Assembly (NCBI GenBank): GCA_905221615.1
Contig: CAJNDT010004724.1
Span: forward strand, 434,001 to 498,000
Origin: Symbiodinium sp. CCMP2592
Taxonomy: Eukaryota; Sar; Dinophyceae; Suessiales; Symbiodiniaceae
DNA length: 64,000 nt
Direction of reading: 5' to 3'
Part shown: positions 2,222 through 60,589 of the stretch, one piece after another
Position numbering within the stretch: position 1 is the first letter of the stretch
Layout: each line of letters opens with the position of its first letter
The notes under the pieces: model-generated
Database searches by the model: none
Told to the model about the DNA's origin: nothing
Seen by the model: the letters and a program-made list of their open reading frames with translations, nothing else
Position numbers and translations under genes: made by a program

Positions 2222-2405
2222 TGAAACACTGAATGTTACACATCCAGGTGCCTGTCTGTTTCACGTATCACTTGCATGTATCCATGCCTGTTGCTCAAGG
2301 TTCTAGTGCAGTGGACTACAGCTGTGCGCCTGTAGCAAAAGAGACACCTGAGTGCCTGTGTTCCTGTACGCCTAGCGAGGGGATACACGTCCAGGTTACA
2401 TCTCA
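2222..2405 (+). repeat. 5' LTR of copia element
   Basis: This 184-bp repeat starts TGAAACACTG and ends ACATCTCA. It matches 16918-17101 except for C/G in the CTGTAGCAAAAG segment and G/A in the CGTCCAGGTT segment. It is short for an LTR. It should hold the promoter and the R region, but I cannot place a TATA box, which dinoflagellates generally lack. Confidence 0.95.
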
Positions 2406-2408
2406 ACG

Positions 2409-2420
2409 TGGTAGCGGAGC
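2409..2420 (+). other. Primer-binding site, initiator Met tRNA-like
   Basis: TGGTAGCGGAGC begins three bases after the LTR end. Its complement, GCTCCGCTACCA, has the shape of a tRNA 3' end with CCA. It closely parallels the copia primer sites TGGTATCAGAGC and TGGTAGCAGAG, which pair with initiator Met tRNA. The donor tRNA gene is not in this window, so its identity is inferred. Confidence 0.85.
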
Positions 2421-2437
2421 TCCCGGGAAACGGGAAG

Positions 2438-2561
2438 CTTCACACTTGTGGAGGTACCCGTTCGGTACTCTCTACACAGGTGGAGGCAACCGGAATACCC
2501 GGTGTGCTTCACTCAGGTGAAGGTGACCGGAGTCTCTCCGGCACACTTCACTCAGGTGAAG
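2438..2561 (+). repeat. Cluster of four short hairpins in the copia leader
   Basis: Four units of the form six-base stem, four-base loop, six-base stem lie at 2438-2453, 2470-2485, 2507-2522 and 2546-2561. The third and fourth are perfect (CTTCAC, TCAG, GTGAAG). The first two each contain one G-T pair. Each is followed by a short tail ending ACC, and the GG before a unit can pair with that CC as an outer stem. The same family recurs throughout the element. Confidence 0.85.
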
Positions 2562-2607
2562 ATAACCGGAAGAGGTTTCTCCCGGGGCTCGATCCAAGAA
2601 CAGCGCA

Positions 2608-5600
2608 ATGGCTAGCCACTCTGCGACTATCTTTGAGCATGAAGGAGGAGATGATGACTACCTCCTCCACGGAAATGAATCTTTCGCGACTAATCATCGT
2701 CATCTCAATGAATTACACCGTCTTTCAGCTTTCCAGCAGGTGACCACCAAAGTACCTCCATCTTATGATGGTAGAAGCAGTTGGTTTGCCTATGAAGATG
2801 CGATCGATGACTGGTGTGACATTACTGAGCTAGACAATGATAAGCGTGGACCAGCTTTGAGAAATCGGCTAGAAGGTGAAGCAGCAATCCACAAGAGACT
2901 TCTCGACAGAGATCGCCTGAAGGACCCGAACAACGGAGTGAAGTACTTCAAGAGTTTCCTGCGGCCGCTTTTCGTGAAGGGAGCAGCGAATGTTTTTCTC
3001 TATCGCTTCCAGCAGTTCATGAACATGCACCGTGGGAACGGAGACATGCTTCGTTGGATTACCAGGTTTCAACTCTCTGTTCAGAGAATGCAAGAAGCGT
3101 GGAACGATACCTATCTGCCGATCGAGGACCCGAACAATGCAGAGGTCAGAGCTTTCATAGTAGGACTTCCTCCAGAAGAACAAGAAAACCTTACGCCAGC
3201 TCAGGCAATGGAGAGAGCCAACGAACGGCTCAGAGAGCAGCATGCTCGGACCATTCCGATCACGCCCAACCTGGTCGCTTTGATCTTTGTGTCCCTGTCT
3301 GATCTGACACAGGATCAGCGTCAGGTGTTGACATCACTGATGGCGCATCGGAACCGAGTCCTGGCTGACTACAACACGGCCGAGCTTCGCGAAGTCTACC
3401 TGGAGATCTTCTGTACGACCAAGACTACCGTCGACAATCCACTCCTCGCTCCTTCCGGCCACGGTGGCCGCAAGACCTTCCTTGTGATCGATGAAGGATA
3501 TTTGAACGATCATGAAGGCTACTGGGTCGAGGACGAGGAAGATGGCACCGAAGGTTTCCTCGAAGCGGATGAGGACGCCTTCTGGGTCTACGACGACGAG
3601 AACTATTCATGGTTCCAGCGGCGCTTCCAAGGCCGCAAGATGAGGCGCGGATTCAAGGGCCACCGTAAAGGCAAAGGAAAAGGTGGCAAAGGATCCAAAG
3701 GAAGGCGCTTCTTCAAAAGGAAGAAAGGCAGGTCACATCTTGCCGAAGAATCAGAAGCATGGCAAGCAGAAGGACAATGGCAAGATTACCATTGGAGCGA
3801 TCAGTCCTGGGATGACTGGTCCTGGTACGAGTCTGAGGAATCCTATGCAGCCAAAGGAAAAGGGAAGAAAGGAAAGAAGGGCAAAGGAAAGAGCAAGTTT
3901 GGCAAGGATGGAAAAGATGGAAAGTCCGGAAAAGACGGACAGAGCCAGCTTGCTGATGCTGCCCCGAGCGGCACCACAGCCGCCACAACCTTCTTCGTTG
4001 AACATCTCAACACTCCGAACTTTTCTTTCATGGCCACCGAAGAGAAGATCAATGAGATCGAGGAAGCCTTCATCTCTCAGCCCTTGACGCCGACCGCGAT
4101 GGTGTTGGACCTGGGATGCACGAGAGCAATGGCTTCGAGAGTGGCCGCACAGGACCTCATGGAGTTCTGTGACAAGAACCAGAACTGTGGCATATGGTAC
4201 ACCATTGCTGAGACCACTTCTCAGTTCACCTTTGCCAATTCCGAGTCTACCAAATGCAACCAGAAGTTGGTCATTTGCATGTACGACCGGGACTTTGCAG
4301 TTCAATCCACAGAGTTCGACATTGTGGAACAAGGGCATGTTCCCATTCTCATGTCCTTACCTCAGATGCGCAATCTTCGTTTCCAGTTCGAGCTCCATCC
4401 GGAAAAGGCCTTGCTCAGCAGCCCTGTGCTGGGAATCAAGGATGTGAGGCTGAAGGTTGCACCCAGCTCACACTTGGTACTTGATCTTCTTGAACTCAGT
4501 CAGCTGATGTGGAATGTGCGTTTCAGCAAGCATAAGAAGTCGAGCTTCCTCACCTACTTCTCCCACTACGAGTACGGCTTCCATCAGAAGACCGAGGGAT
4601 GCTGTTCTCATGAACAGGTACCTGACAATCTCGTGTTGGCGACTGATGATGAATGGGTGATCAACGAAGCCGACATGGAAATGATTCGCATCCACAAGAA
4701 GATGAGAAGAGTCAAGTACGAACCCAAGGCGGGTTATGTGCCAATTCCGTTGGAGTATCTGGACACCAAGCGCAAGACGATCATGGAGTTCTCCAAGGGA
4801 AAGAGCGTTACTCAAGAAGATGACTGGCGTTCTTCTGAGCTTTCTTCAACAAGAACTACTGACTCTTGGAAAGGCAAGACCATTTTCAAGATTCTGCCTG
4901 GTGGCATCGAGAGTAGAACCTCGGTGCCAGCCAAGTCCAAGGATCCAACCCGTGGAAAGGTAGGATCTCCAGAGGACATGGTTAGCGCAGGTAAGCCTGA
5001 AGACAGCTCGAAGAACACAGGAGCATCCGGAAGCTTTCCTCAGGGAAAGGCACCGGCAAAGAGAAGGATTCGAGCCAAGGGAAGCTTTCCACAGGGAAAG
5101 GCACCCGAGGAACCGGCTCCTCCTCCTCTTGCTCCTGAGGATGATCCGGATCTTCAAGAGTACGAACCTTCCGAACCGGGGGATGCAGATTTGCTTCCTC
5201 CGAGTCCTCCGAAGGCCCCAGAGCCACAGTCGCTAGAACCTAGGAGGATCGCGCTTCCGTTGCCAGGCCACGAGGTCTCAAGGGCTTCTCCGCAGTATCA
5301 GCGCATGTTGGAAAAGCTGAACAATGATGTTGAGCTTTACAAGTTGCATGTGAAGCATTACCACATGAGTCCTGCTCAGTTTCGACGCAGGACCAGCATG
5401 CTTGGTCTGCCAGGAGAGATCTATGACAAGTACGACCGCATTGTCAAAGGCTGTCGTGTTTGCAGCACCTCGGTGCCTACGCCTCCGCGAGCCAGAATCG
5501 CAGGGTTAAGAGCATCATCCTTCGGTGATCTCATTTTTGTTGATCATGAAGAAATCAAGTTCGGTACTAAAGCCTACTTGGCTTTGGTCATCATTGATGG

Positions 5601-5799
5601 TGCTTCAAATCTTCTGTGGGCTACGGCTCTTACAAGCCTGGAAGCGCCAGAGACTCTGGGAGCTTTTAGACAATGGACAGAGGAGAACAACTGCGTTCCT
5701 AAGGGAATCGTAGGAGATCAAGCATTTTTCATTCATGTCTTACTACAAGTTCCATGGCATTACTCCGTATCCATGTGGACCACGGACTCCTTGGCCTAA
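2608..5799 (+). CDS. Copia Gag, protease and N-terminal integrase (frameshifted)
   Basis: This 1063-residue ORF starts at an ATG after the leader. Residues 1 to about 330 are a Gag-like region. Instead of a CCHC zinc knuckle, residues of about 340-450 are basic and low-complexity (KGKGKGGKGSKGRR). The protease motif is at residues 501-503 and reads DLG within VLDLGCTRAM, where families normally have DSG or DTG, so activity is doubtful. Residues of about 800-900 are a Pro-rich linker with two GSFPQGKAP repeats, each encoded by a hairpin. An HH-CC zinc-binding segment (KHYHMSP, then CRVC) precedes the integrase core, with catalytic Asp at residues 979 (FVDHEE) and 1037 (VGDQAF). The frame then breaks in a T-rich run near 5720-5735, and the last 20 or so residues are out of frame. 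The core continues in the next ORF. Confidence 0.9.
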   Translation: MASHSATIFEHEGGDDDYLLHGNESFATNHRHLNELHRLSAFQQVTTKVPPSYDGRSSWFAYEDAIDDWCDITELDNDKRGPALRNRLEGEAAIHKRLLDRDRLKDPNNGVKYFKSFLRPLFVKGAANVFLYRFQQFMNMHRGNGDMLRWITRFQLSVQRMQEAWNDTYLPIEDPNNAEVRAFIVGLPPEEQENLTPAQAMERANERLREQHARTIPITPNLVALIFVSLSDLTQDQRQVLTSLMAHRNRVLADYNTAELREVYLEIFCTTKTTVDNPLLAPSGHGGRKTFLVIDEGYLNDHEGYWVEDEEDGTEGFLEADEDAFWVYDDENYSWFQRRFQGRKMRRGFKGHRKGKGKGGKGSKGRRFFKRKKGRSHLAEESEAWQAEGQWQDYHWSDQSWDDWSWYESEESYAAKGKGKKGKKGKGKSKFGKDGKDGKSGKDGQSQLADAAPSGTTAATTFFVEHLNTPNFSFMATEEKINEIEEAFISQPLTPTAMVLDLGCTRAMASRVAAQDLMEFCDKNQNCGIWYTIAETTSQFTFANSESTKCNQKLVICMYDRDFAVQSTEFDIVEQGHVPILMSLPQMRNLRFQFELHPEKALLSSPVLGIKDVRLKVAPSSHLVLDLLELSQLMWNVRFSKHKKSSFLTYFSHYEYGFHQKTEGCCSHEQVPDNLVLATDDEWVINEADMEMIRIHKKMRRVKYEPKAGYVPIPLEYLDTKRKTIMEFSKGKSVTQEDDWRSSELSSTRTTDSWKGKTIFKILPGGIESRTSVPAKSKDPTRGKVGSPEDMVSAGKPEDSSKNTGASGSFPQGKAPAKRRIRAKGSFPQGKAPEEPAPPPLAPEDDPDLQEYEPSEPGDADLLPPSPPKAPEPQSLEPRRIALPLPGHEVSRASPQYQRMLEKLNNDVELYKLHVKHYHMSPAQFRRRTSMLGLPGEIYDKYDRIVKGCRVCSTSVPTPPRARIAGLRASSFGDLIFVDHEEIKFGTKAYLALVIIDGASNLLWATALTSLEAPETLGAFRQWTEENNCVPKGIVGDQAFFIHVLLQVPWHYSVSMWTTDSLA

Positions 5800-8700
5800 T
5801 CGAGCTGAGACCGCAGTGCGTCTTTTCAAGCGCACCTGGGCAATCATGGCCAAGGCCTTAGCTGATGAGGGTTATGCAGAGAAGGTGACTGTTCGTCAAG
5901 CAGTCAAGAAGGTGGCTTGGGCAAGAAATTGCCAGCTTACCGTCTCAGGCTATTCTCCTTTGGAGATAGCTACAGGAAGACGGCCACCAGACTTGTTTGA
6001 TGTCGAGAACAGTTCTCCTGAACAGCTCTCTGCTGAACCTGCCGAGGAGGATCGAACCACTCTGGAACTCCAGAGGATTGCCATGCGGGCTCATCAAGAG
6101 GCCAGACAATCACTTGACCTTCGGAAGGACCTTGCACGGAGAGTCATGCCGTCTGATGGTCCTTACTCGAAGGGTGACCGCGTGTTTGTTTGGCATAAGG
6201 ATGAGTCGAAGAAGAAGTCTGAAGGAACCTGGGTCAGAGGCATAGTTGTGTCACAGGAAGGTGCCATGGTGTTGGTTGAAGTTCATCGTGCCGTTCTTCG
6301 GGTTAATCAGTCGAAGGTCAGGCGTGATGGAGATCCGTGGCATGATGTGGCCATTCCTCTGAAGAAAGATGAGGTCCCGAGACGCTCTTCTCAGGAAGAG
6401 GCACTCGACCGCATCGGCGACGATATTCTTGATCGTGCCGGTTCTGGGTTCTGCTATGAGCATGAGATCTGTTACCACACTCTCACTTCAGGCAAGAGCG
6501 ATTTCGTTGAGATCACACCTCGCCTCACCGGGCTTACTGCGTGCACAGTCCATTCTGGACTTGATGCGAGTGAACCTGTGTTGTTTGGTGAATGGAACGC
6601 CAAGTCTATCCAATCTTCGATTGAGGCCGCTTGGCGAGTGATCTTGAAGGCAGAGCCTAATCACATTTTTATTCATCCTGTCATCCCTGATGGTTGGACC
6701 AGGAAGGCTACCAATGCCTTCTGGCACTTTTGTGCCGAAGTCTGCCGTTGGCAAGATGACAAGGGTGATGGATACTTCGTGACCATCATGTATCCTTCTC
6801 ATTGTGGGTTTTGGCTTTCGCAGAGTAGTCGCTCGCTGAAGTGGAGGAGAGGACTTTCATTCCACACCTTCAAGAACCGTGGTGTACTTCCTTCAGGGGG
6901 AGATGACCACGGTAAGCGTCAGCATGGTGAGCTTTCTTTTCTCACTAATCTGCCTGATGGATCATTTGGCCGTTTGGAGTCGTTGGAAGAAGGCTATGAC
7001 TCTGCTAACGCACTTGATCCAAGGTTTGCTGTGCTGCTTTCGCAGTGTCTTGTGGGTGATGAACGATCAGATCTCCGACAATGTTACTTGTTCGAAGATA
7101 TCTTTGAGGATTTTGATGATGGAACACTGTGTGCGTTGTGTTTGCGATCAGACCGCAATTCAGAGGCTTTACCGGTTCTTCCGTCAGAAGCAGAGTACTC
7201 ATTACTCTCAAACAATGACAAAGGGAAGCTTCCGACACCTCTGAGGTTTGTTGCGCCGCAGCGGTTTGTTACATCGTCTTTGGTCCAGACTCTGTCATAT
7301 GTTGACAGTCTCCTTCCAGGTACTGAGTTGGAAGTTCACACGACCACATCGTCTGACGCGGTCGCCTTGCGGCCGATGATTAAGAATGTGCGCGTGCTAA
7401 CTCTGCCGTATCTGGAGTTTGAGTACTGTAACGTCTACAGGGGGACTCAAGGGAAAACACTCCCTTTGGTTCATCGTCATCCTGATGCTGTTGTCATTTT
7501 GTGGCAGAAGGGTGATATGAATCATGTGTTTTTCGTGACGATGGCACAGTTGCTTCCTTGCCTTAAGGATATGCAATCAACGCACTGGTCCATGATAGTG
7601 TTCTGGAACGAGTCACAGAACAACAGTTCCAGACGCGGGCCTGATGTTGGCTTGGACTTCACGGACCAGCCAGCGCCAGCCCCGGTTGCACCGCAACCGC
7701 CAGCCACAGACGACGATGTGGACTATCCAGGATATGATGATCCACACGGTGATATGCCTGTGGACGATGAGGAAATGCCACTACAGCATCCAGAGCAGGA
7801 TTTAGATGATAATCCTGTTGAGTTGCATGTCGGTGGTGACCCTCCGTCACAACCTCCTGGAGGCGGTACTCATGTACCGGTACCAGGGGGAGATGATGAT
7901 TCCGACCTGGATCACGATCCGGACGGTGATGGACATCCGCCAGGAGGCGGTCCTCAGGGACCGGGACCTGGTTATGGTCCGTCACCGGAAGAGCCTCCTC
8001 TTCCGATGGAGTTTCACGAGGAGTCGCCTCCTCCTGGAGGTCCTCCCGATTCTCCTGGGGCTCCGCCTCAGTTTGCCAACCCGGATCAGGTTCTTAGTCC
8101 ACCGATGCCGTGGCCGGCACCACCTTCACCTATTGTTCCTGTTCCAATTCCGCCGCATCCTCACTTTCCGGTGCCACAGAGTATGCGACCGCCGTCGCCT
8201 CGCAATGTGTCTCAGACACGTGCCAGAGGCACACATCCTGAAGATGTGTCTAAGGCCAAGTCACGTACTGTTGTGGGACCTCCGGTTGTGTTGTTGCCTG
8301 GGCAGTCTGCGGGAAAGAAGGATCCCGATCCGTCGGGTGACTTTCCAGGTTTTCACGAGCCTGCTTCCTCTTCTTCTGATCCGGCTCCTGTTCCTGGTTT
8401 GCCGGTGACTGAGGGGGAATTTCCTATCCAGCAAACCCCACTCCCGGAACCCACCCCGGAACCGCCGGTGCCGGAAGCTGGTGAGGATACTGATTCGGAT
8501 GCAACGGTTGACTATCGTGATGAAAGCTTGCTTGCTTTGGCTGTTGGAGACGACGACGTTTTGATTCGCCTTCCGTCGGACTTCAAGGTTCCGTCCTTTG
8601 TTCCGTTGGATGGTGATGGTTTTGCGTCGTGGTTGACTAAACAAGATAAAATCAAGGCAGGTACCCTCACGCCGGAGATGCAGCGCAAGTATGCCGCCGA

Positions 8701-10993
8701 AATTCGGAAGGCTAAACTTGAGGAGTTCAAGAGTTACTTGGACAATGATGCAATTCGGCTGACGGACCGTCGCAAGCTTAAAAACGATGTCAATTTTCTT
8801 ACCGGACGTTGGGTCCTTACTGTGAAGGTTGACAAGAACGGTTACTTTTCCAAGTTCAAAGCCCGATGGGTTTGTCGTGGGTTTCAGGACAAGTTTGCCT
8901 GGGATCAACAAACGGACAGCCCTACGGCTACTCGGTATGGTTTCCGTTTGGTTGCGCAGTGCGCTGCCAATCACTATTGGGATCTTTTTCATTTGGATCT
9001 TAAGACCGCTTTCCTTCAGGGGGAACACTACAATCTGTCATCTCGCATGGTTGTGGTTCAGTTGCCTCCTGACATCGGTTTGCCTACCTGGATGGTTGGC
9101 CTTTGTCTCAGACCAGTCTATGGTCTGAACGATGCACCGAGAAGATGGTGGAATCGTTTGGACAAATTCCTCAGGTCTGTAGGCATGGAACCGACCAGAG
9201 CTGACCGATGCACTTATGTCGCATACGACGGCATAGAAGGCAAGAAGGGCAAGAGCCACCTTGCGGCAGGAAGCTCCTCTCAGGAGGAGGAACCTGAAGC
9301 AGGAAGCACCTCTCTTGAGGTGGAACCTGCCTACCTCAAGGAGGTTGCCCTTCATGCCATGACATGCTACGCATACGATGAAGGAAACCGTTCTTCCTCC
9401 GACCGTGCGGAGGAGAGATCCTATCTTTCATGTCCCGATATCGCTCAGTGCTTTAACACCGATACCAAGAAGATGGTTGACTATGCTTGGAGGCCTGTGA
9501 CTGATGATAAGCTTCTCGGATTCTTGGGCAGTGTTGCTTGTAAGAAAAGAGGTTGGTTCCCTTATGAGAACGGGCATGCTCTCGTTTCTCACAGGGCCAA
9601 GGCTCTCCGTACTCCTGCACCTGTCTATCAGGTCAAGGACTACCCTTATCGAGTTTCCATGATCCTCCGTAAAGGAACATGGTGGATTGTCGAAAGGGCC
9701 CATGACCTGAGGTTGGACAAGGGCGATAAGACCTGCTTCCTTGAAGAAGAAGCTGAGGTCCTAGTCTCCTTGTTCCTTCCAGAGAAGGCTTCATACAAGG
9801 TCGAGAGCTTATCAGAGCTCTCCCCCGAGTTGGTTGATCAGCTTCTTGAACACTTTGTTGACCCTGTGCATGGAAGTCCCAGCAAAGGTCGCAGGACAGT
9901 TGGAGTGATGAGTCTTCATGTTGATGATCTCATCATAAGTGGAACCCCTGAGTTCCTCACTTGGTTCCTAAAGAAGATCAAGGAACACTTCACTGTCGGC
10001 CATGAGGACAAGAATGACCTTACGTTCACGGGACAGCGTGTTCGTTGGGTTCTTGATGCACAAGGGAAGAAGAAGTATATCTCGATCGATCAAAAGCTGT
10101 GTGTTTCAGAGCTTGAGGAGATTGTCATACCAAAGCATCTTAAGGATGCAGATGCGTGTGATAAATCTCTTCACACTTCCTATCGCTCTTTGCTTGGTAG
10201 CATCAACTGGCTTCAGTCGAGGACGCAATTTCAGGCATGTTACCAGTTCTCTCGTCTGGCATCAGCATCCGCTGCTCCGACTATTGGTCACTGCAAGGAG
10301 TTGAACAAGTTGTGTCGACAGATACGCAGTGAGGAAGTTGAGTTGCGGGTGTGGCCAGTGAAGGGATCACCGAGGATTCTTGGAATTCCTGACGCAGCTT
10401 TCCGTAACAACAGCGACAAGTCCTCACAGAGGGCGATGACTATCTTCATCGCAGATGAAAGGGTCAAGAATCGAAGAGACACCCGAGGCTCATTGGTCTT
10501 CTTCGAATCAACCAAGATTAAGAGAACGACCCTCAGTACCACTGTCGCTGAGCTTTACGCCTTGATGAAGTGTTTTGGTACCTGTCAAATGCTTCGTGGT
10601 TTGTGGAAGGACATTAGTGGTCTGGATGCCGAGATTCACATTCGCACCGATGCTAACAATCTCGTGTCTACCGCTTCTACTACTCACTCACCCGAACAAC
10701 AGGAAACCATTCACATGATTCAAATGCTGAGAAAGGAAGCGTGTTCAGGTGCTATTGCTGATCTTTCTCACGTTCGAACCGAACACTGTCTTTCTGACTG
10801 TCTCACGAAACGAAGCGCTAATCCTAGAAACCTCCTGAGTTCTGTTCAAACTGGGTGGTTGAAGGAAATTGATTCACATCCTCCTTTTCGTTCCATGATT
10901 GAGCACAAGGCCTTCTTGAACGCCTGGCTCCGTAAGGAGTACGCGGTTTTGAGTGCAGTGCAACATGTCATGTTCATGCAGGAGCGTTTGTGA
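5735..10993 (+). CDS. Copia integrase C-terminal part, RT and RNase H
   Basis: This 1752-residue ORF is offset by one base from the upstream ORF and overlaps it by 65 bp. It begins inside the integrase core (GPRTPWPNRAE), with the third acidic residue at Glu25. The displayed ATG is therefore internal to the ancestral polyprotein. A long region of unknown function is followed by a Pro/Asp-rich linker (about residues 640-920). RT runs from KARWVCRGF through HLDLKTAFLQGE (Asp1088), VYGLNDAPRRWW and LHVDDLIIS (Asp1397, Asp1398). The two RT catalytic motifs are 309 residues apart, against about 80 in ordinary copia RTs, because of an insert between about 1168 and 1388. RNase H residues are seen in IPDAAF, TVAELYAL and IRTDANN. 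Several hairpins lie in the coding sequence, including 6385-6400, 9274-9289 and 9307-9322. Confidence 0.93.
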   Translation: MSYYKFHGITPYPCGPRTPWPNRAETAVRLFKRTWAIMAKALADEGYAEKVTVRQAVKKVAWARNCQLTVSGYSPLEIATGRRPPDLFDVENSSPEQLSAEPAEEDRTTLELQRIAMRAHQEARQSLDLRKDLARRVMPSDGPYSKGDRVFVWHKDESKKKSEGTWVRGIVVSQEGAMVLVEVHRAVLRVNQSKVRRDGDPWHDVAIPLKKDEVPRRSSQEEALDRIGDDILDRAGSGFCYEHEICYHTLTSGKSDFVEITPRLTGLTACTVHSGLDASEPVLFGEWNAKSIQSSIEAAWRVILKAEPNHIFIHPVIPDGWTRKATNAFWHFCAEVCRWQDDKGDGYFVTIMYPSHCGFWLSQSSRSLKWRRGLSFHTFKNRGVLPSGGDDHGKRQHGELSFLTNLPDGSFGRLESLEEGYDSANALDPRFAVLLSQCLVGDERSDLRQCYLFEDIFEDFDDGTLCALCLRSDRNSEALPVLPSEAEYSLLSNNDKGKLPTPLRFVAPQRFVTSSLVQTLSYVDSLLPGTELEVHTTTSSDAVALRPMIKNVRVLTLPYLEFEYCNVYRGTQGKTLPLVHRHPDAVVILWQKGDMNHVFFVTMAQLLPCLKDMQSTHWSMIVFWNESQNNSSRRGPDVGLDFTDQPAPAPVAPQPPATDDDVDYPGYDDPHGDMPVDDEEMPLQHPEQDLDDNPVELHVGGDPPSQPPGGGTHVPVPGGDDDSDLDHDPDGDGHPPGGGPQGPGPGYGPSPEEPPLPMEFHEESPPPGGPPDSPGAPPQFANPDQVLSPPMPWPAPPSPIVPVPIPPHPHFPVPQSMRPPSPRNVSQTRARGTHPEDVSKAKSRTVVGPPVVLLPGQSAGKKDPDPSGDFPGFHEPASSSSDPAPVPGLPVTEGEFPIQQTPLPEPTPEPPVPEAGEDTDSDATVDYRDESLLALAVGDDDVLIRLPSDFKVPSFVPLDGDGFASWLTKQDKIKAGTLTPEMQRKYAAEIRKAKLEEFKSYLDNDAIRLTDRRKLKNDVNFLTGRWVLTVKVDKNGYFSKFKARWVCRGFQDKFAWDQQTDSPTATRYGFRLVAQCAANHYWDLFHLDLKTAFLQGEHYNLSSRMVVVQLPPDIGLPTWMVGLCLRPVYGLNDAPRRWWNRLDKFLRSVGMEPTRADRCTYVAYDGIEGKKGKSHLAAGSSSQEEEPEAGSTSLEVEPAYLKEVALHAMTCYAYDEGNRSSSDRAEERSYLSCPDIAQCFNTDTKKMVDYAWRPVTDDKLLGFLGSVACKKRGWFPYENGHALVSHRAKALRTPAPVYQVKDYPYRVSMILRKGTWWIVERAHDLRLDKGDKTCFLEEEAEVLVSLFLPEKASYKVESLSELSPELVDQLLEHFVDPVHGSPSKGRRTVGVMSLHVDDLIISGTPEFLTWFLKKIKEHFTVGHEDKNDLTFTGQRVRWVLDAQGKKKYISIDQKLCVSELEEIVIPKHLKDADACDKSLHTSYRSLLGSINWLQSRTQFQACYQFSRLASASAAPTIGHCKELNKLCRQIRSEEVELRVWPVKGSPRILGIPDAAFRNNSDKSSQRAMTIFIADERVKNRRDTRGSLVFFESTKIKRTTLSTTVAELYALMKCFGTCQMLRGLWKDISGLDAEIHIRTDANNLVSTASTTHSPEQQETIHMIQMLRKEACSGAIADLSHVRTEHCLSDCLTKRSANPRNLLSSVQTGWLKEIDSHPPFRSMIEHKAFLNAWLRKEYAVLSAVQHVMFMQERL

Positions 10994-11065
10994 GTCATGT
11001 CTGCTTCATGTGTGAGCTGTCGGAGCAATTCAATGCATGTGCTTCATGAAGAGTTGTTGGTCTCT

Positions 11066-11082
11066 TTTTAAATTTGTGCCTG
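11066..11082 (+). repeat. Internal copy of a 17-nt motif also found beside the 3' LTR
   Basis: TTTTAAATTTGTGCCTG occurs here, between pol and the next ORF, and again at 16899-16915, two bases before the 3' LTR. No other copy was seen in the element. An internal copy of the sequence abutting the 3' LTR is what a second plus-strand priming site would look like, although the motif is not purine-rich. A shared RNA-processing signal is the alternative. Confidence 0.6.
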
Positions 11083-11132
11083 CATTGCTCAAATCAGCTG
11101 GTTCAAAACTCAAGTGAGAAAGTAGCCCACAA

Positions 11133-11154
11133 CTTCCTCTTCTTCTGTTACCAG
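11133..11154 (+). promoter_or_regulatory. Probable 3' splice site just before the third copia ORF
   Basis: A pyrimidine-rich tract (CTTCCTCTTCTTCTG) ends in CCAG, and the ATG of the next ORF starts two bases after that AG. This fits a cis-splice or spliced-leader trans-splice acceptor and would allow the downstream ORF to be made from its own mRNA. It is a prediction from sequence only. Confidence 0.5.
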
Positions 11155-11155
11155 C

Positions 11156-13921
11156 ATGGCTGCGGCAGGACCCTCGATGGACACTGGACGCTCCTCTCAT
11201 GAGGAGGCACCATTCCAGGTCTACTGGACACCGACAACGGGATGCAACTTCAAGATTGACGTCCGCACTGGTGTCCCCGACCTGTCCTTGTACCAACAGA
11301 GCGCGTCCTGGGCAAACCGTCGTGTACTCCGAACAGTTGGAGATGGCGACGGTAATGCCAGCTATCCTACAAGGGATCGTCGAGCCTATCCTGCGAGTGC
11401 TCCGGTGGCCTCCCTCAGGATCATCCCAGAAGGTGTTCCACGGTTTTTCCGTCAGCAGGACACCACGGCGTACTTCCCTCAGGGGGAGATGGCCGCGGTG
11501 AACATTCTGGAAGGACAGTTGGCCTTTCTGTCACACGTCCTGCTGTACGAGGAAACTCACCCTGGGACCCATGTGTTGCAGCGGCACCTCACGTGGAAGT
11601 TCGACTTCCTCCGGTGCTTTCTTGGATGTCTGACCGGCGACGAGCTCACCGAGCTCGATCGTGAAATCTTCAACATTCACCAGATGCGCCACAATCACGG
11701 TGGATGGGCGGTGAAGTCATCCAAACAGCTGTCATCATTGACCAGGCACGACACGAGGGTCACGCCGGGTCGATACATGGAGATCCCGTTGGAGACGATG
11801 ATGAAGCACCCCATCAGGCCTTTCGAGTGGGAGCCCAAGAAGTTCTTCGCCTTCTTGATGGCGAACTCGAAGGGTCGCTTCAACATCTGGGTGGCCCCGG
11901 TGGCTCTGCAGTTCGAGCGGTTCTTTGACTTCGACTTCTATGTCGGGGTCTCCGCCGTCCAGGGTCACTCACGGATGCCCGAGCGGGTCTCTGATGTTGC
12001 TCTCGGGGAAAGGCTCACCTTGGAGCGATGCCGCCAGCTTGGAACGATTTTCCACGCCTCGGATAACTCCAACTACGAGAGCATCCGGGAAAACGGCTTA
12101 AAGCTGGAGGCGACGAAGGCGGCGTGGCAGCGGCACAGGAAGGCCATCCACCTCGTTTATGCGGGTGGAGTGGTTTCTCCTGGGGCTGGGACCGTCATTA
12201 AGTACGGTACCTACGTCTTCTACGCCAAGCTCGATTACGAGTGCTACCTGAGTCACGGCCACAATCTGTTTCTTACAGACAACGGCGTGGTGCTCTCGTA
12301 CCAGGACATTCCGGCGATGTATCTCACACATCACTACCGTCCTCCTCACGAGCAAGATCCGGGTGGCATTCGCCACGAGAGGAAGCAGCAAAGCGCAGGG
12401 GTAGGCTCTTCTCAGGAAGAGGGAACCTCAGCGTCTGCTTCCGCATCTGCTTCCGGAGGCCCTCCACAGGGAGGGGTACCGGGTAGCAGCTCGGATCCAA
12501 TGCCTTCGAAGCCAGCTCCCAAGAAGCGGCCAAAGACATCTCAGGATGCAGGCCAAGCGTCACCGGGAAGCTTCTCTCAGGAGAAGGTACCCACATTGGA
12601 CGCGGCAGCTCTCCAGAAGCTTATTCGTGACAATGAGCTTAAGGCAGAGCGGGAGCGGCAAGCCACAGCCTCCGAAGGAGACACCAAGTATGCGTATCAG
12701 TCTGGGGACACCGTCCACGGCAAGATTGATGCGCATAAGTCCCAGCAGCAGGAGGAGCTCAACGAGGTTCTCCGCAAGGCCAGGACGAATCCATGGCATC
12801 TCTTCGCGCACGGCAAGTTGCACATGGTGGACTCCTCTGGCCAGCCGATGCTTAGCACCTATGGCGATGCCCTCGTTCAGGTCACCCCCTGGCACACTTT
12901 GACTACTTCTATGAGAGAGTCTTTGGGTGGTGAATACGATTGGGCATCGTGGTTGCAGCATCCTCTTTCGGGGTACTCCCTGCACTTCTTCCTCAAGGCC
13001 TTCGAGATGGGGAAGTTGCAGGGGAACTACCTCGTGGAGCTGGACAAGAAACCGAAGGTTTACTCCAACGGTTACACGTCACCTTGGATGAACTTTAAGC
13101 GTCATCCTGGCGGTCTTGCCCAGATGCTGGACGATGTCTCCGTTGCCGCGTCGAACGAATTCAGGCCCAACTTGGGTAACATTGGATTCGATCGCCCTCG
13201 GGACAATGACTCTCGTGCAAAGATGCCAAGGACAGAGGATCCCGACTACTCTCGCAAGCTCGCCGCACACAAGGCTTTCCTCAGGGAAAGGTATGTGTAT
13301 GAAGAGGTTGGCTATGTGCGAGAGGATTTCCAGATGCTCGTCCGCGTCATCAATGAGGCTTATGGAGTGGACTTCTTCTCCTACATCCAGCGCCACGCCG
13401 GTGATCTGGAGGTTCGCCGTAAATACACGGTGCGAACCCCTGAGGGCTATTGTCTCTATGACAGTACCCTGAAGCAGCCGTTCAACGGCAGCTACCTCCT
13501 GGCGGTTCTGGAGAAAGTCTTCGCTGAGTCTGACCAGCGCGATTTCAAGTCGGCTTTCGCCCGCAAGGCAAAAGCTGATTTAGTGGCGTACGAGGACTTG
13601 AAGGCGAAGAAGGAGTCTGAGCTGAATGAGCTCCTCACCCGACCATATGACGACATTATGATTGAGGAGTTCATCGAGCGACTCCCATGTCCACAGATCG
13701 AGGAGATCGAAGAGCCTCCCGCGGCTACTCAGATGGATACCTCCGAACCGTCGTCTGGATCCACGGACTTGCCACAGGGCAAGAAGGTTGATCCGGTCAA
13801 GACCGAGCCGACCGATGTGCCAATGGAGACTGATGCTCCAGGAAGCTCTCCACAGGGAGAGGTACCTGGGGCTACTGTCGAGTCAATGGAGACCGAAGCC
13901 ACGGAAAGCTCTCCACAATAA
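11156..13921 (+). CDS. Copia ORF3: Tpt1/KptA-like RNA 2'-phosphotransferase domain protein
   Basis: This 921-residue ORF follows pol within the same element. Residues of about 186-395 match the Tpt1/KptA family in order: SSKQLSSLTRHD (Arg197, His198), NSKGRF, VSAVQGHS (residues 265-272), FHAS at His300 followed by ESIRENGLK, RKAIHL (Arg328, His332), and DNGVVLSYQDIP near 375. Tpt1 enzymes remove a splice-junction 2'-phosphate from RNA using NAD+. The Arg normally preceding A-x-QGHS is Ser266 here, so one of the four usual catalytic residues (R-H-R-R) is missing. The rest is acidic, Ser/Pro-rich linker carrying hairpin-encoded S-x-x-Q motifs, plus an unrecognised C-terminal region. The ORF stops at TAA 13919-13921 inside a degenerate hairpin, and the following ORF resumes in the -1 frame. 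A role in processing the element's RNA ends is inferred. Confidence 0.85.
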   Translation: MAAAGPSMDTGRSSHEEAPFQVYWTPTTGCNFKIDVRTGVPDLSLYQQSASWANRRVLRTVGDGDGNASYPTRDRRAYPASAPVASLRIIPEGVPRFFRQQDTTAYFPQGEMAAVNILEGQLAFLSHVLLYEETHPGTHVLQRHLTWKFDFLRCFLGCLTGDELTELDREIFNIHQMRHNHGGWAVKSSKQLSSLTRHDTRVTPGRYMEIPLETMMKHPIRPFEWEPKKFFAFLMANSKGRFNIWVAPVALQFERFFDFDFYVGVSAVQGHSRMPERVSDVALGERLTLERCRQLGTIFHASDNSNYESIRENGLKLEATKAAWQRHRKAIHLVYAGGVVSPGAGTVIKYGTYVFYAKLDYECYLSHGHNLFLTDNGVVLSYQDIPAMYLTHHYRPPHEQDPGGIRHERKQQSAGVGSSQEEGTSASASASASGGPPQGGVPGSSSDPMPSKPAPKKRPKTSQDAGQASPGSFSQEKVPTLDAAALQKLIRDNELKAERERQATASEGDTKYAYQSGDTVHGKIDAHKSQQQEELNEVLRKARTNPWHLFAHGKLHMVDSSGQPMLSTYGDALVQVTPWHTLTTSMRESLGGEYDWASWLQHPLSGYSLHFFLKAFEMGKLQGNYLVELDKKPKVYSNGYTSPWMNFKRHPGGLAQMLDDVSVAASNEFRPNLGNIGFDRPRDNDSRAKMPRTEDPDYSRKLAAHKAFLRERYVYEEVGYVREDFQMLVRVINEAYGVDFFSYIQRHAGDLEVRRKYTVRTPEGYCLYDSTLKQPFNGSYLLAVLEKVFAESDQRDFKSAFARKAKADLVAYEDLKAKKESELNELLTRPYDDIMIEEFIERLPCPQIEEIEEPPAATQMDTSEPSSGSTDLPQGKKVDPVKTEPTDVPMETDAPGSSPQGEVPGATVESMETEATESSPQ

Positions 13922-13935
13922 AAAAGGCATCCGAG

Positions 13936-16185
13936 GTGAAGGTCGAACCTGATGTGCACATGGGTCAGGAAGGAGGTAAGTCCGAGAACATTGAAATGGC
14001 TGAGGAAGGCTCACCACAGGGTGAGGAATCCATGCCAGACATTTCTCCCGAGAAGGATGATGAAAGTGAACTTCACGATCAAGGCATCTGGGGGAAATGC
14101 AAGACTGTTCCGGATCCTGAGTACTACCAGGCCGCGAAGGATGCAGAGGACCAGAATGAGAACGCGTTCGACAAAATGGGCAAGGCAAAGGAAAAGATCG
14201 AGCTCGTTGATCTCGAAGAGTTCAAACATTTCCTTAATCAGCTCACCGAAATCGAACGACAAAGCCCTATGCGGATGCTCTGCAAGCAGCTGCATGGATA
14301 TGGCTATTCAGGCTTGTATCATACAGGACTTCGCGATCCTGAGTACGAGCCCGTTCTCGCCTACAAGGTGCAGCATATGAGTTGGAGGGTAAATGTTCCG
14401 AACCACAAGGGACAGAAATACTCTCTCTCTATGGTGGATCTATTCGACCAACTCAACAAGATGGATCCCATCTATGAGCGTCGTCCCGACAAAAAGGACG
14501 TTGTTTTTCGTTCTGGGGACGTTCGTAGCACCTTGGACGACAAGCTCATGGGCAAGGCCTCTGACATCCGAGAATCAGCACTGGATGTTATGGAAGCACT
14601 TCTTGATAAGCTGAAGTCCCTGGATGCAAGCGGCAATCCGGCAACTCGAGAAGAACTTTTGAATGCTATGCTTCACTACTTCTTGAGCACCGGAGTCGAT
14701 GAAGAGGAGATCGGGGACCTCTCTCTTGAGAAGACGCCGAATCCTTATATTCATCGTTTTGGTCTGGCAGAGGACTCCAATGTCCCTATCTTCACCAGCA
14801 AGACCAAGTATGCCGCGCTCATCCTCAATCTCGGCAACATGAGCAGGGGAAGAAAGCGTTCCGCTCCTAGCTCCGTTGCTAATCACATTGACTGGGACGA
14901 TGCTACACCATCTAAAGGAGCCTTGATAAAATCGATTGCACAGTCGAAGACGCATTTGTTCATGCTCTGCGAAGCGGCTAAGATCGATGACTCCGAAGAG
15001 GCCTTCCTCAAGTCACGCGGTTGGCAATTCCTTCGTAACGAGTCCAAGGACCTGATGGTGGGAAGTCGTACAAATGGTGTCGGATCTTCGATCACCCGTC
15101 TTGCCGGCTCCACTCTCAGTGGATATGCCCACGAGTCCCTTCCAATAACCTATATGGTCGCGGAAATCGTGTATGGCATGACGTTACCGACCGGTCTCCA
15201 GGGCAGTCGTGGTGATGTTCCAGATGAGTCACTGACCAAGGTCTTGGAGCGAGCTGGATCCGACCGGCTCAGAGTTTGTGTCTTCCACCTCCACAATGAC
15301 GCGGCGGCAGACAAGGTGGCGTTGGCTCATGAAGTGTTGGGCAACATGTTCATCGACTGCTTGCACTACCAAGTCGACCTCATCGGTGGCGACGCCAACA
15401 TGGCCCTCTACCGGGCCACCGGCAGAAAGCAGGAGTCGATGGATATTCGTGGCGGGATGTACCAAAGCCTTCTCGACTACTTCTTGGAGGCATGGTCAGA
15501 AAGCCCAAAGTGCCCACACTTCTGTTCGCCTCGTGCGAGACATGTGTCAGCAAACGCCATGTGGCTTCTGAAACAGTATGAGGACACGCTGGGAATGCCA
15601 TACAAGGAAGCTAAGCAACCAGACTGGAATACTTTTCCTGGTTTGGATCCTGTTATGGCTACAGTCATGGAATGGGGACACAGCATGTCGGACGATCAAT
15701 GGGCGGAGTTTCCGTCTTCAAAGACTGAGTTCGACATCCATGTCTCTGAGTGGCTGTTAAACTCCACCAGCGCCGCGTACCTTCTCAACGATCGGGACTA
15801 TGACGCTCACACTCCGCTCCTCATCGAGGTTCACGCGAACCAGTACTCTGGAGGCAGGATGAGAGCGCTCAACCGCAATCCCGACACCGTGAAGGAAGCC
15901 GCGGACAGAAGAAAAGAGAGACAGAAGCTGAACAAGGCGCGTGGTTCTGGTTCTACTGGTCCTGCAGCCGCACCACAGGGAGCAAGCTCTTCTCAGGAAG
16001 AGGCAGCTTCTGGTGCTAAAGCTTCTGGTTCTCAACGTCCTCCAGAACCCGCACAACCTCCTGGTGGCAAGGAAGGCGGCAAAGGAGGCAAGTCCTCCAA
16101 AGGAAAAGGCAAGGACGCCGACAAGGGCAAGTCCAAGGGCAAGACCAAGGACAAGTCCAAAGGCAAGGCCAAGGGCAAAAACTGA
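13936..16185 (+). CDS. Copia ORF4: EEP-fold nuclease/phosphatase-like protein
   Basis: This 749-codon open frame is given from GTG 13936. The first in-frame ATG is at 13960, and the frame is open back to about 13921, so a -1 link from ORF3 is possible. The pattern of the endonuclease/exonuclease/phosphatase superfamily is visible in order: ILNLGN (Asn298), MLCEAAK (Glu346), FHLHND (His451, Asn454, Asp455), LIGGDANM (Asp486, Asn488) and YDAHTPLL (Asp623, His625), the last matching the SDHxP motif. Such folds cleave phosphodiesters in nucleic acids or small phosphates; the substrate is unknown here. The C-terminus is basic and repetitive (KGKSKGKTKDKSKGK), like the Gag tail, and probably binds RNA. 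Two hairpins lie at 14010-14025 and 15987-16002. The frame ends at TGA 16183-16185 followed by CTA. Confidence 0.75.
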   Translation: MKVEPDVHMGQEGGKSENIEMAEEGSPQGEESMPDISPEKDDESELHDQGIWGKCKTVPDPEYYQAAKDAEDQNENAFDKMGKAKEKIELVDLEEFKHFLNQLTEIERQSPMRMLCKQLHGYGYSGLYHTGLRDPEYEPVLAYKVQHMSWRVNVPNHKGQKYSLSMVDLFDQLNKMDPIYERRPDKKDVVFRSGDVRSTLDDKLMGKASDIRESALDVMEALLDKLKSLDASGNPATREELLNAMLHYFLSTGVDEEEIGDLSLEKTPNPYIHRFGLAEDSNVPIFTSKTKYAALILNLGNMSRGRKRSAPSSVANHIDWDDATPSKGALIKSIAQSKTHLFMLCEAAKIDDSEEAFLKSRGWQFLRNESKDLMVGSRTNGVGSSITRLAGSTLSGYAHESLPITYMVAEIVYGMTLPTGLQGSRGDVPDESLTKVLERAGSDRLRVCVFHLHNDAAADKVALAHEVLGNMFIDCLHYQVDLIGGDANMALYRATGRKQESMDIRGGMYQSLLDYFLEAWSESPKCPHFCSPRARHVSANAMWLLKQYEDTLGMPYKEAKQPDWNTFPGLDPVMATVMEWGHSMSDDQWAEFPSSKTEFDIHVSEWLLNSTSAAYLLNDRDYDAHTPLLIEVHANQYSGGRMRALNRNPDTVKEAADRRKERQKLNKARGSGSTGPAAAPQGASSSQEEAASGAKASGSQRPPEPAQPPGGKEGGKGGKSSKGKGKDADKGKSKGKTKDKSKGKAKGKN

Positions 16186-16434
16186 CTAGGTTCAGATGAG
16201 GGCGAGGACGCAGACGTTGACGTTCCTGACGAAGACGTTGGTCCTGGCCCAGCATCCTTTGGTGATAGACCGTGGTTCCCATTTCGCCTGCAGCTTTTTC
16301 ACTGGCATTTGGAGAGATGGTACTACCCTCACCACCATTTGCCTCATCCTGATGACAGTCCTCGTACTCGTCGTAGGGTGGAGCAGTACAACCAGAGGGT
16401 GATGAACCAAGGTCCGATGGAAGAAGTGGAGTGA
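16186..16434 (+). CDS. In-frame extension of ORF4 after UGA-CUA (possible readthrough)
   Basis: After TGA at 16183-16185 the same frame stays open for 82 codons until TGA 16432-16434. The predicted extension starts acidic (DEGEDADVDVPDED), then has an aromatic and His-rich stretch (FHWHLERWYYPHHH) and a basic end. The bases after the stop are CTAG, and UGA-CUA is the best known leaky stop context. The alternative is a recent nonsense mutation in this copy. Confidence 0.5.
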   Translation, partial: LGSDEGEDADVDVPDEDVGPGPASFGDRPWFPFRLQLFHWHLERWYYPHHHLPHPDDSPRTRRRVEQYNQRVMNQGPMEEVE

Positions 16435-16449
16435 GTGTTTCATGGAATG

Positions 16450-16569
16450 CTTCTTTCATAAGAAGGTATCCAGTTTGAGCATTCGCCATTTCATAGGAAG
16501 ATGCTTTTCTCATGAAGAGGTACTTCCTTAAAGACCTTGTCAGAAAGAAGATACTTATCTCAGGATAAG
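16450..16569 (+). repeat. Cluster of three hairpins in the copia 3' region
   Basis: Three units of the family lie at 16450-16465 (CTTCTT/AAGAAG, loop TCAT), 16504-16519 (CTTTTC/GAAGAG with one T-G pair) and 16554-16569 (CTTATC/GATAAG, loop TCAG). They lie beyond the last stop codon, so their stem complementarity cannot result from selection on protein. The rest of 16570-16898 shows no gene and no clear polypurine tract. Confidence 0.85.
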
Positions 16570-16898
16570 ATACTTCTCATGCCCTTATATATTTGCCGTG
16601 TCGCAAGATGTCATGCTGGCATCAAGTGGAGCTAAGCTCTACAATCTTTTATGTGACAGTAAGCTTTCCGCCTGGAGAGGAAACTGAACACAAGTGGGCA
16701 ACTTTCAAGCAAAAGTTTTCAGTTGAAGATCCGTTTGCGTTTTCGTGCGTGTTCTGCTCTTTTCATTGAAGCTGTCTTCAGGTGAGAGATGTATAGATTC
16801 TCTTCAAGTCGCAGATGTAGCTCAATACTCCGCTAATTCGACCGAGAGCAATAACAGGCTAGTTGAATGCCGACTCCACGGCCATGCAGCTCTACGTG

Positions 16899-16915
16899 TT
16901 TTAAATTTGTGCCTG
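16899..16915 (+). repeat. 17-nt motif abutting the 3' LTR
   Basis: This is a perfect copy of TTTTAAATTTGTGCCTG at 11066-11082, ending two bases before the LTR. It occupies the place of the polypurine tract, which is otherwise absent. Confidence 0.6.
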
Positions 16916-16917
16916 GT

Positions 16918-17101
16918 TGAAACACTGAATGTTACACATCCAGGTGCCTGTCTGTTTCACGTATCACTTGCATGTATCCATGCCTGTTGCTCAAGGTTCT
17001 AGTGCAGTGGACTACAGCTGTGCGCCTGTAGGAAAAGAGACACCTGAGTGCCTGTGTTCCTGTACGCCTAGCGAGGGGATACACGTCCAAGTTACATCTC
17101 A
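16918..17101 (+). repeat. 3' LTR of copia element
   Basis: This 184-bp copy matches the 5' LTR except at two positions. It is followed by GGGGG and then by the purine-rich flank that also borders the 5' LTR. Confidence 0.95.
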
Positions 17102-48026: not shown

Positions 48027-48317
48027 CGCCACAAGTGCTCAAGCGGCCGCGCTGAATGAGAGGTTTCGAACAGGCTTGGGGCGCAACTGCCGTGCTAGAG
48101 GTTCCTACCGGGCCCTTTTCTGAACAGTAAAGGTTTGTGCCTCCTTCCACGCCATGGTCCTCTCCCTTTTCATACAGGAGCTGCTTTGAGCCGCCAGGTC
48201 CCAATTCCTGGGCCCAGACACTGTTTAAAACATTGCAAAACTGGGCAGGCGGTAGGGTTTCCACTTCCGCGCAGTGGAGGGAGGCATTAGGCTTCGGTCT
48301 CTTGACGAAAGTAGCGG

Positions 48318-59107: not shown

Positions 59108-59782
59108 AGGGTGAAGCGGCCAAAACAACGGCAACACATCGTACTTCGTAGCACTTGGGCACCGCTTCGAGGCCAAAACAACGGCAACAAATCGTACTTC
59201 TTAGCACTTGGCCACGCCAGCACAACGGCAACAAATCGTACTTCTCAGCACTTGGGCACCGCTTCGAGGCCGAAACAACGGCAACACATCGTACTTCTTA
59301 GCACTTGGGCACCGCTCTGAAGCCAAAAACAACGGCAACAAATCGTACTTTTTTGGCACTTGGGCACCTCTTCGAGGCCAAAAAACGGTAACAAATCGTA
59401 CTTCTTGGCACTTAGTCACCGCTCTGAAGCCAAAACAACGGCAACAAATCGTACTTCTGAGCACTTGGGCACCGCTTCGAGGCCAAAACAACGGCAACAA
59501 ATCGTGCTTTGAGGCCGTAACAACGGCAACAAATCGTACTTCTTAGCACTTGGGCACCGCTCTGAAGCCAAAACAACGGCAACAAATTGTACTTTTTGGC
59601 ACATGGGCACCGCTTCGAGGCCAAAACAACGGCAACAAATCGTACTTCTTAGCACTTGGGCACCGCTCCGAGACCAAAACAACGGCAACAAATCGTACTT
59701 CTTAGCATTTGGGCACCGCTTCGAGGCCAAAACCACTTGGGCACCGCTCCGAGGCCCATATTCAACGGCAACAAATCGGTTT
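59108..59782. repeat. 53-bp tandem repeat array, copy 1
   Basis: About 12 units of a 53-bp repeat containing GGCAACAAATCGTACTTCTT. Two variants alternate loosely, one with CGCTTCGAGGCC and the other with CGCTCTGAAGCC. Some units are shortened. Confidence 0.95.
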
Positions 59783-60160
59783 TTTAGGGTGAGCGGGTTT
59801 AGGGTTTCGGGGTTGAATCCCCAAACCCCATAAATCCTTCAACCCTAAACCCCTCAACCCTGAATCCCGGACCCCCCAAACCCTAAACCCCAAAGCCCAA
59901 CACCAAGCCCCCTACACACCAAATCCTTAAACCCCAAACCCTCTAATCCCCAAACCCCACAAATCCTTAAACCCTAAACCCCTCAACCCTGAACTCCACA
60001 CCCCCCAGATCCTAAACCCCAAAGCCCAACACCAAACCCTCTACACCCCAAAACCTTAAACCCCTAACCAACCAAACTTTAAACCCTATAATCCCCAAAC
60101 CCCACAAACCCTTATCCCCAAACACCAAGCCCCCTACACTCCAAATCCCTAAATCCTAAA
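59783..60160. repeat. Degenerate telomere-like repeats (CCCTAAA strand)
   Basis: Irregular CCCTAAACCC, CCCCAAACC and CCTTAAACC units run through the segment. They resemble the TTTAGGG telomere repeat of plants and dinoflagellates but are too irregular to be an active telomere. Confidence 0.8.
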
Positions 60161-60500: not shown

Positions 60501-60589
60501 CCAAACCTATCCAATAGCGCCTAGGGTTTGGGTTAGAATCCACTACAACTGATGCGCATGATGGCCCCCCGTCCCAGCCCACACCACCT

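Follow-up and report, generated by a model that had tools for sequence, protein, structure and literature searches.

How long terminal repeat (LTR) retrotransposons pick out their own RNA among the related transcripts of a nucleus is an open question. The stretch of DNA considered here, 64 kb from Symbiodinium sp. CCMP2592 (contig CAJNDT010004724.1, positions 434,001 to 498,000; hereafter the window), contains repeated units that give an unusually direct handle on it. A copia-type LTR retrotransposon spans positions 2222-17100 of the window (14.9 kb), and scattered along it are small hairpins whose stems vary in sequence while remaining paired. An earlier note, made from the letters alone, described them as a private family of at least 17 covarying hairpins of 16 nt. 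What are these units, what keeps them paired, and what might read them? I will argue that they almost certainly constitute a real, selected family of RNA structures.

Hairpin Counts and Controls

Counted in its simplest form, as a perfect stem of 6 bp closed by one of four 4-nt loops (TCAG, ACAG, TCAT or TCTT), the hairpin occurs 21 times in the window, always on the + strand and inside the element, from 2507 to 16569. The - strand of the element has none, and the remaining 49,120 bases have none in either orientation. When the element is shuffled with its dinucleotides kept, the mean is 0.098 such hairpins and the maximum 1 (n = 500). If any loop is admitted, the element has 24 hairpins of the 6-4-6 form, as compared to a shuffle mean of 4.16 (maximum 11); there are 63 in the flanks, most of which come from a TA array. 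The protein sequences do not require the hairpins, since synonymous-codon shuffles of four reading frames give far fewer (means of 0.112, 0.082, 0.202 and 0.026) than the 3, 5, 7 and 2 observed.

With near-matches included, the element contains 28 units. The earlier note is thus borne out in seeing a real family in a copia element, in its expectation of well under one by chance and in its report of flanks free of units, while its figure of 17 holds as a lower bound and is too low as a count.

Eight of the 28 units lie outside the reading frames; there are four in the 203-nt leader between the LTR and the start of gag, and four in the 3' non-coding end. Among the 20 coding units, 17 share one codon phase, giving peptides resembling G-S-x-x-Q-x-x-x-P, and 3 fall in other phases. 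Many stem-loops with a shared recognition feature are in this way distributed along the genomic RNA, from leader to 3' end.

Architecture of the Unit

The hairpin of 16 nt proves to be the inner part of a larger unit. When 25 units were aligned on the inner hairpin, outer pairing appeared only with three bases left unpaired on each side, and in this register 23 of the 25 form at least three outer pairs, as compared to 5.7% of random positions. The full unit consists of an outer stem of at least 3 bp, a 3x3 internal loop, an inner stem of 6 bp and a tetraloop. The outer stem that had been supposed to form from the flanking tails is therefore real, but the internal loop separates it from the inner one.

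The two mismatches that flank the internal loop are A.A or G.G, and the middle position is variable. Of the 25 aligned units, 22 have A.A and 3 have G.G as their outer-side mismatch, and on the inner side 20 have G.G, 4 have A.A and 1 has U.G; over all 28 the figures are 23 A.A and 5 G.G at one flank and 21 G.G, 6 A.A and 1 U.G at the other. One A.A is combined with one G.G in 35 of 41 units, if one adds 13 units from the related contig L001 (described below), which were picked by the homopurine rule, 9 of them being found also without it.

The aligned units are paired in 94.5% of cells. Their covariation score is 0.797, as compared to 0.207 for 500 shuffles, and slid registers do not exceed 0.208. 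Units had been selected by their inner stem, so its 100% pairing is partly built in. The outer stem was not a criterion, and taken alone it is 88% paired, with both-side changes in five of five pairs.

A strict descriptor, which asks for three or more outer pairs, a homopurine mismatch at each flank, an inner stem of 6 bp containing no more than one G.U and a tetraloop of any sequence, finds 24 matches on the + strand of the element, with a mean of 0.01 in 100 shuffles, and none on its - strand or in either flank of the window. It misses 2470, 2546, 6887 and 13768, each by one departure, and these four complete the set of 28:

2432..2459, + strand: unit 2438 (leader), loop ACTT, G.U pair; strict descriptor
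2464..2491, + strand: unit 2470 (leader), loop ACAG, G.U pair; one internal-loop pair U.G
2501..2528, + strand: unit 2507 (leader), loop TCAG; strict descriptor
2540..2567, + strand: unit 2546 (leader), loop TCAG; first outer pair C.A
4596..4623, + strand: unit 4602, loop TCAT; strict descriptor
5028..5055, + strand: unit 5034, loop TCAG; strict descriptor
5079..5106, + strand: unit 5085, loop ACAG; strict descriptor
6379..6406, + strand: unit 6385, loop TCAG; strict descriptor
6881..6908, + strand: unit 6887, loop TCAG, two G.U pairs; covariance model E 7.6e-6
7858..7885, + strand: unit 7864, loop TCAT; strict descriptor
7942..7969, + strand: unit 7948, loop TCAG; strict descriptor
9268..9295, + strand: unit 9274, loop TCAG; strict descriptor
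9301..9328, + strand: unit 9307, loop TCTT; strict descriptor
11185..11212, + strand: unit 11191, loop TCAT; strict descriptor
11321..11348, + strand: unit 11327, loop ACAG; strict descriptor; missed by covariance model
11467..11494, + strand: unit 11473, loop TCAG; strict descriptor
12400..12427, + strand: unit 12406, loop TCAG; strict descriptor
12454..12481, + strand: unit 12460, loop ACAG; strict descriptor
12565..12592, + strand: unit 12571, loop TCAG; strict descriptor
13269..13296, + strand: unit 13275, loop TCAG, different codon phase; strict descriptor
13762..13789, + strand: unit 13768, loop ACAG; two contiguous outer pairs only
13840..13867, + strand: unit 13846, loop ACAG; strict descriptor
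14004..14031, + strand: unit 14010, loop ACAG; strict descriptor
15981..16008, + strand: unit 15987, loop TCAG; strict descriptor
16444..16471, + strand: unit 16450 (3' non-coding), loop TCAT; strict descriptor
16498..16525, + strand: unit 16504 (3' non-coding), loop TCAT; strict descriptor
16548..16575, + strand: unit 16554 (3' non-coding), loop TCAG; strict descriptor
16658..16685, + strand: unit 16664 (3' non-coding), loop GCCT; strict descriptor and covariance model

With one mismatch allowed, the element has 27 matches on its + strand and 1 on its - strand (right flank 0; L001 13 and 0). The dimensions do not vary. Under the homopurine rule, loops of 3, 5, 6, 7 or 8 give no match in the element or in L001 (a 6-nt loop variant of the descriptor has one match in the right flank), stems of 5, 7 or 8 bp give none, and the only match at another stem length is one 4-bp case in L001. 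If geometry alone is required, with loop and mismatches free, there are 28 matches in the window element, 24 of them with homopurine flanks, and 32 in the right flank, none with such flanks. Loops in the window follow N-C-[A/T]-[G/T] in 27 of the 28 units (GCCT occurs once). G.U pairs are found in the inner stems (8 in window units, 7 in those of L001) and A.C never, as would be expected for RNA of the + strand.

A covariance model built from the 25 units has 24 matches in the window with E no higher than 1.3e-5. All of them lie inside the element, as do two weaker matches with E 0.018 and 0.038 (a decayed unit at 13897, and 14706); four matches outside the element have E 0.14-0.57. Rfam 15 returned four matches with E up to 5, all below the gathering score (best E 1.1) and none with the unit as its core.

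With 12 flanking bases, the inner stems of the 28 window units are predicted to form with a mean probability of 0.98. In a 75-nt context the probability exceeds 0.5 in 23 of the 28 and in seven of nine L001 units. The leader as a whole is predicted to fold (z -6.67) by pairing 2438 with 2470 and 2507 with 2546.

The Carrier Element

The copia assignment rests on a PF07727 reverse transcriptase (E 5e-16, Pfam, second reading frame) lying between the two members of a direct repeat, 2219-2405 and 16915-17101, which are LTR copies 98% identical. The parts of the element, with its open reading frames (ORFs), are:

2222..2404, + strand: 5' LTR, about 183 nt, TG...CA; direct repeat, exact ends by eye
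2409..2425, + strand: stretch TGG... resembling a primer-binding site, just inside the 5' LTR; putative assignment, read from sequence
2608..5799, + strand: ORF1, first part, Gag and following; frame broken near 5.7-5.8 kb relative to the single ORF of relatives
5714..10993, + strand: ORF1, second part, integrase region, copia reverse transcriptase (PF07727, E 5e-16) and RNase H
11147..13921, + strand: second gene, first part, with Tpt1/KptA-like domain (PF01885, E 5e-6)
13924..16185, + strand: second gene, second part; no Pfam match; joined to the first part in relatives
16918..17100, + strand: 3' LTR; direct repeat, exact ends by eye

In relatives ORF1 is a single ORF of about 2,800 amino acids, and the second gene encodes 1,452-1,615. 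The nearest named relative of the reverse transcriptase is from S. natans (78% identity) and those of the second gene are from S. microadriaticum and S. necroappetens, most matches being unnamed. The Tpt1/KptA-like domain is of the RNA 2'-phosphotransferase type. Structure models of both second-gene parts are of low confidence (mean pLDDT, the predicted local distance difference test, of 39.2 and 40.7), and a profile of the gene matched no solved structure up to E 1. By eye only, the second part resembles the endonuclease/exonuclease/phosphatase fold. The decayed unit, 13897-13938, falls at the stop dividing the second gene of the window copy in two. Gag carries a basic stretch rich in Arg, Lys and Gly, which occurs also in families without units, and no export protein was recognised.

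Related DNA

One scan of genome contigs found L001 (WTIT01000146.1), a contig of 14.5 kb whose reverse transcriptase is 61% identical to that of the window. It is entered under an archaeal metagenome-assembled genome (MAG), but it is probably misbinned eukaryotic DNA, since its frames match such an element and it is placed inside the clade. By eye, ORF1 is followed by a recognisable relative of the second gene. The strict descriptor finds nine units on its + strand and none on the - strand (shuffle mean 0.03), and the geometry-only search finds the same nine, every one with both homopurine flanks. Units at 13659 and 13786 are non-coding. The loops of the strict set are GTCA, ATCA, AGCA, TTCA and GCCA, and all 13 loops of the relaxed set end in CA. 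The architecture is therefore common to the window element and L001, and the loop letters are not.

The 3' side of the internal loop in L001 unit 8866 reads ATG, apparently the start codon of that contig's second gene. A second contig from the same scan, L002 (NYST01000022.1; 48% identical, 6.7 kb), likewise of copia type, in an archaeal MAG and probably misbinned eukaryotic DNA, has no units by the strict descriptor. Scans of viral contigs found no relative; two of them gave 13 and 81 pattern-matching stretches, none confirmed.

Compensatory Changes and Loop Classes in Related Proteins

Most coding units are in one codon phase, which allows their pairing to be tested from the residues of proteins. 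The columns were fixed by the 17 in-phase units of the window and the gap-free cells of relatives were judged. With the P0008/P0058 class left out, 120 of 138 orthologous cells allow six standard pairs, whereas in registers shifted by 1 to 4 residues only 1-23 of 107-140 cells are compatible; a hand-made list gives 145 of 158. Where both halves have changed relative to the window, 58 of 71 cells are compatible, and only 28 of the 71 are so when combined with the window's 3' half. Changes on the left only are compatible in 9 of 9 cases and those on the right only in 3 of 8. Counted as distinct types, 43 of 57 are compatible; 2000 permutations give 16.4 on average and never more than 25. Site 5085 provides an example: three elements have F..K, G..P and E..S, residues that vary as complementary codons.

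The covariation of the stems claimed at the outset is thus seen in the 25 aligned units, at orthologous protein sites and in the independent DNA copy of L001, and the two tests that the earlier note had named as able to refute it, the shuffle control and the search for uncompensated changes, both favoured it. Its word "private" applies to the loop letters, which are private to element lineages, but not to the architecture, found also at 61% identity.

A further protein, P0083 (53% identical), has nine ten-residue stretches able to encode a full unit with Watson-Crick inner pairs; by the same test P0084 has three and 36 others (P0085-P0120) have 0 to 2. Its loop codons are mostly T, P or A. P0083 would represent a third unit-bearing lineage, judged from protein sequence only.

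Loop codons were sorted into the classes CA (Q, H), CY (L, P) and TY (S, F), using 9 of 22 aligned rows for the second gene and 5 of 10 for ORF1, picked to thin near-copies. In the second gene, 120 of 174 within-element pairs agree in class, as compared to 64.5 after shuffling among elements at each site (reached in 0 of 5000 trials); in ORF1 the figures are 46 of 102 and 27.1 (4 of 5000). P0123 has TY at all eight of its sites and the window has CA at 16 of 17. These results suggest that loop classes change together within an element. Two S. necroappetens proteins also differ in loop residues, P0130 having P/S and P0141 H/Q/E, in few cells.

In a tree of 32 reverse transcriptase rows, nine unit rows and three weak-class rows (P0008, P0025, P0058) lie on one side of a branch with 100/100 support and 20 rows of other families lie on the other (midpoint root). 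The weak class has L001 as its sister, and P0083 branches outermost. The tree fits units that arose once and were reduced in the weak class.

What Might Read the Units

The units keep one geometry and a sense polarity, their pairing is selected beyond the needs of coding, their architecture is conserved at about 60% protein identity, and their loop class is specific to the lineage. The sense polarity, the placement in non-coding ends and protein linkers, the fixed dimensions, the free stem letters and the lineage-specific loops together point to a protein that would read the RNA. If this protein is encoded by the element, as I propose, that would account for loops changing in concert. The leader cluster, between primer site and gag, and the distribution of units over the whole RNA are consistent with genomic RNA being selected or packaged; retroviral packaging signals usually sit in the leader region. 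I give an even chance to the whole of this reading, in which the units are sites dispersed along the sense RNA and recognised by a protein of the element, most likely so that it can select or package its own genomic RNA.

Each unit would fold as an outer helix, a 3x3 loop with two homopurine mismatches, a helix of exactly 6 bp and a tetraloop. The reader, which could be Gag through its Arg/Lys-rich region or the product of the second gene, would contact the widened groove at the internal loop and, at a fixed distance, the letters of the tetraloop. With several copies on each RNA, the element would be able to select, condense or package full-length RNA of its own. One may go further and suppose that a clade of dinoflagellate retrotransposons has an RNA identity code, one rigid motif repeated about ten to thirty times per genome, in which the protein of the element reads isosteric homopurine pairs and the tetraloop is a lineage password changing in concert at all sites. 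I consider this somewhat less likely than not; if true, each family could favour its own RNA above the RNA of sister families that share the nucleus.

Several observations weigh against recognition by a protein of the element. The P0008/P0058 class, nested in the unit clade as the sister of L001, shows few or no protein-coded units: its three cells are all incompatible, and a whole-protein feasibility test gives 12 vs 5.8 and 7 vs 6.8 in shuffles, a weak test, given its high background and given that some families without units also exceed their shuffles (P0105, 13 vs 7.2). Coding units, to judge from these proteins, can be few or lost. P0003, P0121 and P0124 have mixed loop classes, and the statistic for loop classes ignores relatedness beyond the thinning of near-copies. 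The covariance model trained on the window detects no L001 unit. None of the four leader units is predicted to form by itself, and 9307 and two L001 units also fail in the 75-nt context; the pairs predicted between leader units may be alternative folds or artefacts of the energy model. Finally, the Arg/Lys/Gly-rich stretch of Gag is conserved also in families without detectable units and is therefore not specific.

A protein of the element, such as the Tpt1-like product of the second gene, might instead bind the units for RNA export, stability or processing, after the manner of Rev. The Tpt1/KptA-like gene of the window element, recognisable by eye after ORF1 in L001, and the spread of sites over the whole transcript, both non-coding ends included, speak for this, as do passages of PMC4509934 in which homopurine pairs widen the groove for arginine-rich helices. 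No Rev-like protein was identified, however, and both second-gene models are of low confidence. RNA export is not known to need 28 copies, and I consider the idea unlikely. A host RNA-binding protein or modifying enzyme as the reader, acting for instance in silencing or translation control, is more doubtful still. The survival of the architecture across divergent elements is what a conserved host partner would allow, but the loop class differs between lineages, and the differences of P0130 and P0141, in their few cells, are hard to square with one conserved reader. I would rate as improbable, too, a structure acting in cis with no dedicated reader, through ribosome pausing, control of reverse transcription or pairing of unit with unit in genome dimerisation: the predicted mutual pairing of leader units accords with it, but it leaves unexplained the conservation of A.A and G.G and the fixed dimensions amid variable stem letters.

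Repetition, small size and a preference for variable protein linkers recall tiny mobile hairpins, of the type of double-hairpin elements or organelle GC clusters, multiplied inside the element. This is very improbable, since stem letters vary with pairing kept, sites are kept across elements with compensatory changes, and near-identical copies in either orientation are absent (none on the minus strand, none in 49 kb of flank, and stems that differ). Scarcely credible is a peptide motif, such as a protease site, whose codons are complementary by chance. It would account for the shared phase and peptides of 17 coding units, but it does not explain the units, because 8 of 28 are non-coding and 3 of 20 coding units are in other phases; L001 has non-coding units as well, and residues at one site vary as complementary codons. 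As the sole cause it is refuted, though it may be the source of the codon-phase bias. The units are also a warning that peptide motifs recurring in proteins of this kind may arise as by-products of RNA structure. Mimicry of splice sites (YYYCAG|G before, AAG|GTA after), an idea prompted by the letters of the window, was rejected: L001 loops end in CA with no G, and AG|GT is not kept.

Other Features of the Window

A non-LTR retrotransposon frame of 1,617 amino acids (48315-53168) has an endonuclease, a reverse transcriptase and a C-terminal ubiquitin hydrolase domain (UCH, PF00443, E 3e-5, just above the cut-off). Two near-identical frames of 442 amino acids, 25684-27012 and 34392-35720, are offset by 8,708 bases and point to a large duplication. 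A 53-nt unit is tandemly repeated within 59118-63113, in two arrays that lie some 3.4 kb from each other, and an array of the 11-nt sequence TTGCAAGTTTG, in both orientations, in 61078-61473.

Comparison with Known Systems

No account of such hairpins turned up in searches of the open-access literature, and passages of PMC5890265 mention copia in Symbiodinium once and a hairpin not at all. As a sequence-structure family the units appear to be new; their working mode is most likely a variant of dispersed recognition signals.

Organelle double-hairpin elements and GC clusters resemble the units as short hairpins repeated in one genome. They are copies of selfish DNA, however, whereas the units keep their structure as letters change, in one orientation and at conserved sites. 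In mouse mammary tumour virus, a purine loop near the primer site is described, in PMC8096270, as a Gag packaging signal. The units share with it a purine-rich unpaired element and a position in the leader, but unlike such leader-local retroviral Gag signals they run through the whole RNA.

In ligands of Rev, G.G can be replaced by A.A. The internal loop of the units resembles the Rev response element in its purine-purine pairs, and the covarying A.A and G.G pairs amount to a natural experiment in the recognition of non-canonical pairs. In stem IIB of that element in human immunodeficiency virus 1, according to sections of PMC4509934, purine-purine mismatches in the helix widen the major groove for the protein. 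The Rev response element is a single complex element, whereas there are about 28 small units here, with no Rev-like protein found and no sequence relation by Rfam.

A further likeness is to the multiple dispersed packaging signals of single-stranded RNA viruses (MS2, satellite tobacco necrosis virus, parechovirus, and the pregenomic RNA of hepatitis B), many stem-loops along one genomic RNA with a common recognition feature. According to passages of PMC6281560, the stem-loops share this feature while the rest varies, and it is suggested there that such signals extend perhaps to Gag-like proteins. Unlike the viral signals, the units have a rigid geometry that includes an outer helix and an internal loop between homopurine mismatches, they are carried by a retrotransposon, and the binding of a coat protein is putative. 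If the binding is real, the idea of dispersed packaging signals would be extended from RNA viruses to retrotransposons.

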